Shown here: piece after piece, positions 7,888 through 9,042 of the stretch
How the letters are laid out: every line of letters begins with the position of its first letter
How positions within the stretch are numbered: position 1 is the first letter of the stretch
Assembly (NCBI GenBank): GCA_009777365.1
Contig: WRLZ01000015.1
Coordinates: forward strand, 1-11,350
Direction of reading: 5' to 3'
Origin: Candidatus Saccharimonadota bacterium
GTDB taxonomy: Bacteria; Patescibacteriota; Saccharimonadia; Saccharimonadales; Saccharimonadaceae
DNA: 11,350 nucleotides
The notes under the pieces: generated by a model
Told to the model about the DNA's origin: nothing
Database searches by the model: none
The model's input: only the letters and a program-made list of their open reading frames with translations
Made by a program: the position numbers and the translations under genes

Positions 7888-9042
7888 CTATAAAATGAGC
7901 ATGCTGTCGCCGTAGCTTAGGAATTGGTAGTGTTCGGAGATGGCGTGCTCGTAGGCGCGGAGGAGGAAGTCCCAGCCAGCGAAGGCGCCGGCGAGCATGA
8001 GGACGGTGGATTTTGGCGCGTGGAAATTGGTGAGTAGTCCGTCGACGATTTGGAATTTGTAGCCGGGGTAGATGAAAATGTCGGCTTCGCCATGGAGCGA
8101 ACTTGTGGCGGTTTCTAAATCTTTGGCGGCGTATTCGAGGGTGCGGGCGACTGTGGTGCCGAGGGCGATGACTTTTTTGTTATTGGATTTGGCGGAGTTG
8201 ATGGCGGCAATGGTTTCGGCGGGGATCTCGAAATATTCTTGGTGCATTTTATGATCTTTGATGCTTTCGGAGCGGATGGGGAGGAAGGTGCCGAGGCCGA
8301 CGTGGAGGGTGAGGTAGGCGACGGACACGCCGCGAGTTTCGAGGTTGGATTTTAGTTCGTTGGTGAAGTTGAGGCTGGCGGTTGGGGCGGCGGCGGAGCC
8401 GGATTGTTCGGCAAAGACGGTTTGGTAACGGCGGCGGTCGCTTTCGTTGGCGTTGCGGTTCAGGTAGGGTGGGAGTGGGACGGTGCCTTGCGTGAGGGCT
8501 AGGTCGAGGAGGGTTTTGTTGGGGTCTAGGCTTCGCGCGACCGCGATGCCGTCACCGAGGATTTTTTTGATGATAATGACAGGGCGATTTTCGCGAGTCA
8601 TCTCCTTATCCAAATGAGGATGACGAACAGAAGTACCACATTCAGGAGAGCGCTCCGGGCCGCTTGGCCAAGTCATACTCTCCTGAGATGTGGTATTCGG
8701 TTCGTCATCATATAAAAACAACTCGTCACTGGTGGAGAGGGAGCCGCGGTACATGATGCGGTGGGAGTGGTAGTTGTCGTTGCTGTGACGTTCGAGGAGA
8801 ATGATTTCGCGCTTGGCTCCATTCCTTTTGGTAACTTGAAGCCGGGAGGGGATGACGCGGGTGTTGTTTAGGATTAGGAGGTCGCCGGGGTTGAGGGAAT
8901 CTGCCAGGTTGGCATATTTGGAGTCAACTAGAGTTTGATTTTTGCGATCCAAAAGCAAAAGCCGCGAGGAGCCGCGGACTTTTGGTGGATGTTTTGCAAT
9001 CAATTCATCCGGTAGATTGTATGAGTAATCGCTGAGAAGCAT
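7888..9042 (-). CDS. queA: S-adenosylmethionine:tRNA ribosyltransferase-isomerase QueA
   Basis: QueA transfers and isomerises the ribosyl part of SAM onto 7-aminomethyl-7-deazaguanine in tRNA, forming epoxyqueuosine at wobble position 34. All major family blocks are present: YNLPDELIAKHP...SRLLLLDR near the N terminus, GDLLILNNTRVIPSRL (53-68), QTVFAEQSGSAAAPTASLNFT, LHVGLGTFLPIRSE, HKMHQEYFEI, LLTNFHAPKSTVLMLAGAFAG near the end. The usual GLHFT appears as SLNFT. At 384 residues it is longer than the usual 340-350; the excess matches a palindromic insertion at residues about 112-149, between FLYD and RPVIIIKKILGDG. ATG 9042-9040 overlaps the rpmA stop by one base (TAATG), implying translational coupling. 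It is the last gene of a three-gene operon. Confidence 0.96.
   Translation of the reverse strand: MLLSDYSYNLPDELIAKHPPKVRGSSRLLLLDRKNQTLVDSKYANLADSLNPGDLLILNNTRVIPSRLQVTKRNGAKREIILLERHSNDNYHSHRIMYRGSLSTSDELFLYDDEPNTTSQESMTWPSGPERSPECGTSVRHPHLDKEMTRENRPVIIIKKILGDGIAVARSLDPNKTLLDLALTQGTVPLPPYLNRNANESDRRRYQTVFAEQSGSAAAPTASLNFTNELKSNLETRGVSVAYLTLHVGLGTFLPIRSESIKDHKMHQEYFEIPAETIAAINSAKSNNKKVIALGTTVARTLEYAAKDLETATSSLHGEADIFIYPGYKFQIVDGLLTNFHAPKSTVLMLAGAFAGWDFLLRAYEHAISEHYQFLSYGDSMLIL
8597..8709. repeat. palindromic element inserted in frame in queA
   Basis: Arms 8620-8650 and 8678-8708 form a stem of about 29 pairs with single-base bulges (G8633, G8687) and one mismatch, nine perfect pairs at the base (ATGACGAAC with GTTCGTCAT) and nine at the loop side. 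The 27-nt loop contains the palindrome CTTGGCCAAG (8663-8672). A third copy of the arm end, GTCATC (8597-8602), competes with 8704-8709 for GATGAC (8619-8624). The reading frame stays open through it and encodes about 38 hydrophilic residues absent from standard QueA. Confidence 0.75.

Follow-up and report, generated by a model that had tools for sequence, protein, structure and literature searches.

The long palindrome inside queA probably belongs to a dispersed family of palindromic, non-autonomous mobile repeats of ~90–135 bp, whose copies are alike mainly in an apical module and whose arms are free to vary while they stay paired. We observe a repeat family with pairing within each copy, absent from the queA genes of relatives, inserted in frame many times on both strands and scattered patchily over distant lineages; that the element actively moves is what we infer.

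A long palindrome lies in frame within queA

The window (the whole stretch analysed: positions 1 to 11,350 of contig WRLZ01000015.1, Candidatus Saccharimonadota bacterium) encodes a QueA of 384 residues, and the sequence-only reading had placed in it a long palindrome that leaves the frame intact and the family blocks undamaged on either side. Both statements hold: the queA reading frame stays open across the whole palindrome, and the protein matches NF001140 (E 5.9e-115) and, in two stretches, TIGR00113. The relevant features are as follows.

7888..9042, minus strand: queA, host gene of the insertion, 384 aa, family blocks intact on either side of the insertion
8597..8624, plus strand: small imperfect palindrome GTCATCTCCT...AGGATGAC adjoining the element, which supplies the third arm-end copy
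8599..8709: approximate extent of the insertion, 111 nt or 37 aa in comparison with the two nearest homologues, by protein alignment (edges ± ~15 nt)
8619..8709: palindromic element, left arm + core + right arm, with ~30 stem pairs, by folding
8619..8650, plus strand: left arm, of a sequence peculiar to the queA copy
8652..8677, plus strand: conserved apical core GCTCCGGGCCGCTTGGCCAAGTCATA, with the inner 4-bp hairpin GGCC-GCTT-GGCC between the conserved unpaired GCTCCG and AAGTCATA
8678..8709, plus strand: right arm, complement of the left arm

The 91-nt palindrome has the inner 4-bp hairpin in addition to its ~30 stem pairs. DNA folding of the element with its borders (8597–8712) yielded –31.8 kcal/mol as compared to a shuffle mean of –11.6 (z –8.2), and none of 200 shuffles folded as well.

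The third arm-end copy can be read in the letters: the hexamer GTCATC is found at 8597–8602 and 8704–8709, and GATGAC at 8619–8624. The two GTCATC copies are spaced by 107 nt, which is not a multiple of 3, while the homologues imply an insert of 111 nt (384 vs 347 aa); the pair therefore does not mark obvious insertion borders. The third arm end of the proposed arm/anti-arm/arm layout is indeed present in the queA copy, but family-wide this layout is a modest tendency at most: in 32 of 88 family copies six nucleotides of the outer arm occur a third time within 40 nt, as compared to 20.1 expected from shuffled flanks, an excess of ~3 standard deviations. The layout is possible for some copies and is not a family rule, and the small palindrome at 8597–8624 may be incidental.

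The family shares an apex, and each copy has its own paired arms

We searched the window's own genome (G000; 645 kb, 88 contigs, 64% complete) with a 126-nt stretch and found six further places, all of which match over the apex. The apex pattern, allowing up to 3 mismatches, recovered nine copies – queA and eight other sites – while the backwards control recovered none. The expectation of similar palindromes elsewhere in the genome was therefore correct as to their presence; the part that recurs, however, is not the CAGGAGA arm, which is specific to the queA copy, but a 26–29 nt apex, GCTCC[G/A]GGCC-GCTN-GGCC-NAGTCNTA. Side by side, each own-genome copy forms the tip of a long hairpin with dissimilar arms. 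AAGTG/CACTT adjoins the core in six of them and is absent from the copies in queA and on contigs C18 and C71; the latter two do not differ in their arms, perhaps because a single stretch was duplicated.

Arm pairing was scored in the 92 of 94 copies found that had enough flank. Taken as complements, arms of the same copy have a median score of 16.5, compared to 6 (99th percentile 11) for arms of different copies; the score is at least 12 in 80 of the 92 copies and lower in 12. By the median, outer arms of paralogous copies were barely more similar than shuffled ones (median similarity, shuffled median, pairs above every shuffle):

G000: 11.25, 10.25, 7 of 28
G062: 12, 11, 18 of 120
G071: 11, 10.5, 5 of 66
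G066: 11.5, 10.5, 3 of 21
JACOWS: 11.25, 11, 2 of 6
Bifidobacterium: 15, 12, 123 of 630

That a minority of paralogous pairs have arms in common fits copying of whole hairpins followed by drift.

The inner stem reads GGCC/GGCC in 140, GGGC/GCCC in 10 and GACC/GGCC in 2 of the 152 fetched copies with paired arms. The GGGC/GCCC form is a two-sided change, and single-sided variants are also present among the matches listed. Since most loci were fetched by core patterns, conservation of the core is partly built in; this bias is lessened by the comparison of orthologous sites (see below) and by a search with the inner-stem letters left open, which yielded 281 copies and no control match; 55 of the 56 genomes, almost all of them picked as carriers, were positive. 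One locus (L154, 246–451) contains a tandem array of four cores with a 60-bp period, the first with both arms, the next two with the right arm only and the last degenerate.

Patchy occurrence and orthologous sites

With 2 mismatches allowed, matches among 61 genomes (the window's own and 60 relatives) were confined to the two genomes of its own genus; a later scan added a relative, G285, with two copies. An even sample of the window's phylum gave five carriers in 379 genomes, own genome included, one of the five at 1 mismatch. Scanning named genomes yielded at least 109 stretches. The 80 that were fetched come from Saccharibacteria, other Patescibacteria (Parcubacteria, Kaiserbacteria, Adlerbacteria, Peregrinibacteria) and MAGs that bear no group name, and include 24 Bifidobacteriaceae loci; the family is thus not restricted to Saccharibacteria. 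Rickettsia is not named among the 80 stretches listed of at least 109. Carriers hold 1 to 33 copies per genome (49 of the scanned carriers, 2 mismatches), with zero control matches in every one. The core had no match in viral contigs (two scans) or plasmids, so no carrier was seen there, and phages gave one short match only (E 0.6). That cores so nearly identical occur so patchily suggests that the family has spread horizontally.

Five sites in the genus of G062 are occupied by the element in more than one genome. At four of these the core differs at most at the N position and the arms of each copy still pair, despite diverged arms and flanks (left-arm agreement of 32/48, 27/41, 28/34 and 33/45 aligned columns). 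The fifth site (L045, L221 and L200, in three genomes) has one degenerate core, one enlarged core and one core of the GGGC/GCCC subtype. The apical loop of L221 (near 4450; G071) is extended by 18 nt, which include the palindrome TGCCTGCGCAGGCA. At three sites within one genus, the element is present in one genome and absent from another (L208 vs L235, L214 vs L226, L045 vs L221), which indicates that the element comes or goes. The junctions of these filled and empty sites are too diverged to show a clear target-site duplication; besides GATGAC, the search for such duplications found a single further 6-nt direct repeat at 84–140 nt distance.

Preservation of the core at four of five old sites hints at a host function beyond mobility. 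The repeat could be a structured element of use to the host – a protein-binding DNA site or an RNA processing or termination hairpin – held by selection, with the gene insertions as by-products. We regard this as unlikely, if the most serious of the alternatives: the fifth orthologous site, with its degenerate, enlarged and different-subtype cores, speaks against it, as does presence in as few as five of 379 genomes. Nor did Rfam lend it support, as nothing in the window matched at gathering score and the nine matches in five loci were all sub-threshold. A tRNA reading of the feature is likewise unsupported.

In-frame insertions into conserved genes

We examined 93 copies: nine from the own genome, two from G001 and 82 in 80 named loci, 69 being non-bifidobacterial and 24 bifidobacterial. 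The core lies away from the ends of 28 reading frames of at least 150 aa, with L016 added by hand; these were scanned against NCBIfam (20), Pfam (10) or both (two). In 15 of the 69 non-bifidobacterial copies, and in none of the 24 bifidobacterial ones, the element is in frame within a conserved gene, in that the family match extends over the core or flanks it on either side. The hosts are:

QueA (the window's copy, L009)
KsgA (L014)
CysS (L017, L054)
QueA at another site (L029)
Tgt (L037, family match in two stretches)
UvrC (L044)
MiaA (L049)
PrmC (L058)
TlyA (L075)
ValS (L076)
ArgS (L088)
UvrD (L090)
cysteine desulfurase (L102)
RarA-like AAA ATPase (L103)

Of the 13 other frames, eight matched no family in the library scanned (L031, L043, L055, L059, L065, L077, L098, L101) and five matched a family that does not extend across the core (L016, L046, L079, L082, L083). 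In L016 (~1501; G000:C40) the core is near the predicted start of an ABC_trans_CmpB-domain protein, and an ATG within the core could be the start codon. PDB comparisons of KsgA and CysS start after the insert or break around it and added little.

The core follows the strand of the host gene in 8 of the 15 and runs against it in 7. As it can lie on either strand, its translation differs between hosts: it is read in five frames, as RSGPLGQV, APGRSAKSY, LRAARPS, TWPSGPER and RLGLAARSA, and the sixth frame, as read off the core, often contains TAA or TAG. The two CysS insertions are in the same region but on opposite strands and are probably independent. Outside called ORFs we counted 37 copies, using simple ORF calls: 20 between co-directional ORFs, 12 between convergent and one between divergent ones, and four with one neighbour. 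While this placement is in keeping with a host-functional hairpin, the orientation is not: cores between co-directional ORFs are sense in 10 cases and antisense in 10. The even orientation, both there and within genes, speaks for action at the level of DNA rather than of one RNA strand.

Candidate mobilisers and known palindromic repeats

For a mobile repeat, an apex that is conserved and arms that may vary but stay paired suggest a handling factor that reads the tip of a folded strand. A trans-acting enzyme would recognise the apex in single-stranded or cruciform DNA and move the entire hairpin; new copies within genes would persist only where their length and frame are harmless, as in the β-turn loop of QueA; and the arms would stay paired by compensatory change, their pairing being maintained by selection that favours the hairpin or, alternatively, by arm-templated (quasipalindrome) correction. 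We looked for a common mobiliser in two enzyme families, Y1_Tnp and RVT_1, and found none: Y1_Tnp is present in 22 of 51 carriers and in 6 of 29 element-free relatives, two sets that differ in lineage, and was not found in the own genome (64% complete), in G001 or in the ten Bifidobacterium genomes tested, while a reverse transcriptase (RVT_1) is present in 6 of 24 carriers. Neither the Y1 transposase nor the reverse transcriptase is therefore supported as the common mobiliser.

The distribution of Y1_Tnp bears directly on a further alternative, namely that the repeat is of the REP/REPIN type and is mobilised by the Y1 (HUH) transposase that accompanies REPs. The arrangement of tag, short hairpin and tail is REP-like, the enzyme is more frequent among carriers than among the relatives (in sets of unequal lineage), and in bifidobacteria eight pairs of copies (L146–L153) are arranged head to head, 135–300 bp apart, as in BIMEs or REPINs; by eye, most of these have CGCTGGAAC at one outer end and three have the matching GTTCCAG at the other. 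These outer ends also bear on a possible MITE nature, for which terminal inverted repeats common to the copies and a target-site duplication would be expected; a clear duplication was not seen. The reading is nevertheless improbable, since Y1_Tnp is missing from the genomes named above, both the GTAG and CGTC tags are missing, and conservation lies at the apex of a long hairpin.

GTAG REPs and REPINs with their RAYTs are similar as dispersed palindromes and, in Bifidobacterium, in the paired layout; they differ by the GTAG tag and by a Y1 transposase that G000 and the ten Bifidobacterium genomes tested lack. CGTC-tagged REPs, which include RPE-4, RPE-6 and dRS3, are described as tagged short hairpins with a tail that form head-to-head dimers, include intragenic units and come without associated transposase genes (PMC3733652). 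The present family resembles them in its short hairpin with tag and tail, its head-to-head pairs and its intragenic copies; the difference is that those REPs have a CGTC tag and an 8–9 bp stem, whereas here a 4-bp hairpin beside AGTC sits atop a long variable stem.

The sequence-only reading had likened the queA insert to Rickettsia palindromic elements (RPEs) that enter tolerant loops, and this likeness is supported by the absence of the insert from the relatives' QueAs, the eight further genomic sites and the in-frame insertions; active movement is presumed. RPEs are reported as palindromes of ~105–150 bp, found in frame in conserved protein genes as well as between genes, with several families per lineage (PMC2229807, PMC10969869). 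The corresponding features here are a 91-nt palindrome with an implied insert of 111 nt, nine copies in the genome, and in-frame insertion in conserved genes for 15 of 69 non-bifidobacterial copies. RPEs are, however, described as encoding a conserved peptide (PMC10969869), whereas here it is mainly the apex that is kept, the arms vary from one copy to the next (a minority of pairs excepted) and the core is read in five frames. The hosts seen, Patescibacteria and Bifidobacteriaceae, differ as well. Palindromes that enter genes in frame are familiar above all from Rickettsia; in other bacteria, REPs and some MITEs behave likewise (PMC3733652, PMC2229807). A 2024 review puts Rickettsia at an unusually high level and considers a similar route of protein evolution conceivable in other prokaryotes (PMC10969869).

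The best reading of the core element is thus a gene-invading palindrome of RPE-like behaviour with a conserved apical recognition module. Its apex is near-constant and its arms are free, so one can search directly for the factor that reads the apex, and the long-standing question of how RPE-like elements move becomes testable.

In integron attC sites it is the base of the hairpin, not the apex, that is conserved. The likeness to attC lies in the variable self-complementary stems combined with a conserved part, and the difference in the conserved part being the apex here. The literature titles and abstracts listed, largely from open-access papers, contain no description of the core or of such elements in Saccharibacteria, and core strings retrieved one unrelated fly paper only; the core family, scattered in Patescibacteria and bifidobacteria, is apparently undescribed.

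Two unrelated palindromes occur at the QueA loop

QueA was found in 16 of the 61 genomes, own included. The insert is missing from all 15 comparable relatives, of which 13 have no comparable insert (one of the 13, G132, lacks most of the QueA region) and two, G013 and G031, have unrelated inserts. The nearest homologues, P0002 and P0003, are 62% and 61% identical to the window QueA and, at 347 aa, 37 residues (111 nt) shorter; with the closest homologues at this level of identity, no nucleotide-exact empty queA site was found. Neither of the two outcomes by which the sequence-only reading would have fallen, an insert conserved in other QueAs or a lack of similar palindromes elsewhere in the genome, was thus observed. 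An idea taken from L159 (where a hairpin lies over the end of a frame taken by eye for valS), that the arms are an inverted copy of the target, has no clear support from the QueA comparison, since most of both arms lies within the inserted stretch, although the outer ~15 nt of one arm could be native.

In an AlphaFold2 model of QueA (34 sequences, mean pLDDT 83.2), residues 114–148 have pLDDT below 50 and lie between strands 107–110 and 155–163, so that the insert is a disordered loop at a β turn in the model. No benefit of the insert to QueA is apparent.

Homologues P0020 and P0095 have other inserts at the same loop, and P0070 has two inserts with a common peptide (EVFASSS...SEREAQHG-like), one at the window's loop and one at another; with inserts in P0020, P0070 and P0095 at one place, the QueA loop looks like a hot spot. 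Separately, the loop region of G001, of the same genus as the window, reads identically to P0044, which one source labels Candidatus Nomurabacteria; the other named QueA matches are labelled Candidatus Saccharibacteria, and the label of P0044 may be wrong.

The recurrence of inserts at this loop in G013, G031, P0020, P0070 and P0095 might be taken for a native loop extension conserved as protein, which is very improbable: the inserts of the other QueAs look unrelated in sequence, that of G031 belongs to another palindrome family, in other proteins the core is translated in five different frames, and the insert peptide was not found in the 33 other QueAs aligned with that of the window from the best 120 of 7999 scored homologues. 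Equally remote is a local origin of the palindrome in the queA lineage by template switching, with no mobile element, for while the arms of the queA copy are unlike those of the other own-genome copies compared, this origin is refuted by a 26-nt core common to eight other own-genome sites and to distant genomes.

The insert in the queA of G031 (L161/L244) is another long palindrome (–70.3 kcal/mol over 135 nt, RNA parameters), unrelated to the core family. There are thus two gene-invading palindrome families in Patescibacteria, one of them also in bifidobacteria, and annotators should bear in mind that an unusual loop in a protein of Patescibacteria may stem from selfish DNA. One might tentatively go further and imagine a trans-acting machine, unlike REP/RAYT or MITE systems, that moves hairpins by reading only their apex and pairedness and is active in Patescibacteria and bifidobacteria, and that, along with the second family of like architecture, repeatedly writes disordered loops into housekeeping enzymes of reduced genomes; we consider this broader picture possible, though doubtful.

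Of the 61 genomes examined in the window's family, 11 contain the G031-type palindrome, and G000 is not one of these. Its apex consists of two hairpins around CCCGTAACGACGGG, and the arms are again copy-specific (20 loci: L244 and L245–L263). The apex pattern is present in 17 of the 20 loci; 15 of these 17 copies lie in an open frame of at least 100 aa, 12 of them with RNDG-type peptides. Ten of the 15 frames were scanned, and nine have Pfam domains around the insert, in PheT, a YchF-type GTPase, MnmA, three TopA, an O-antigen-ligase-domain protein, PriA and UvrA. The exception is a Mur ligase, where the insert precedes the first matched domain.
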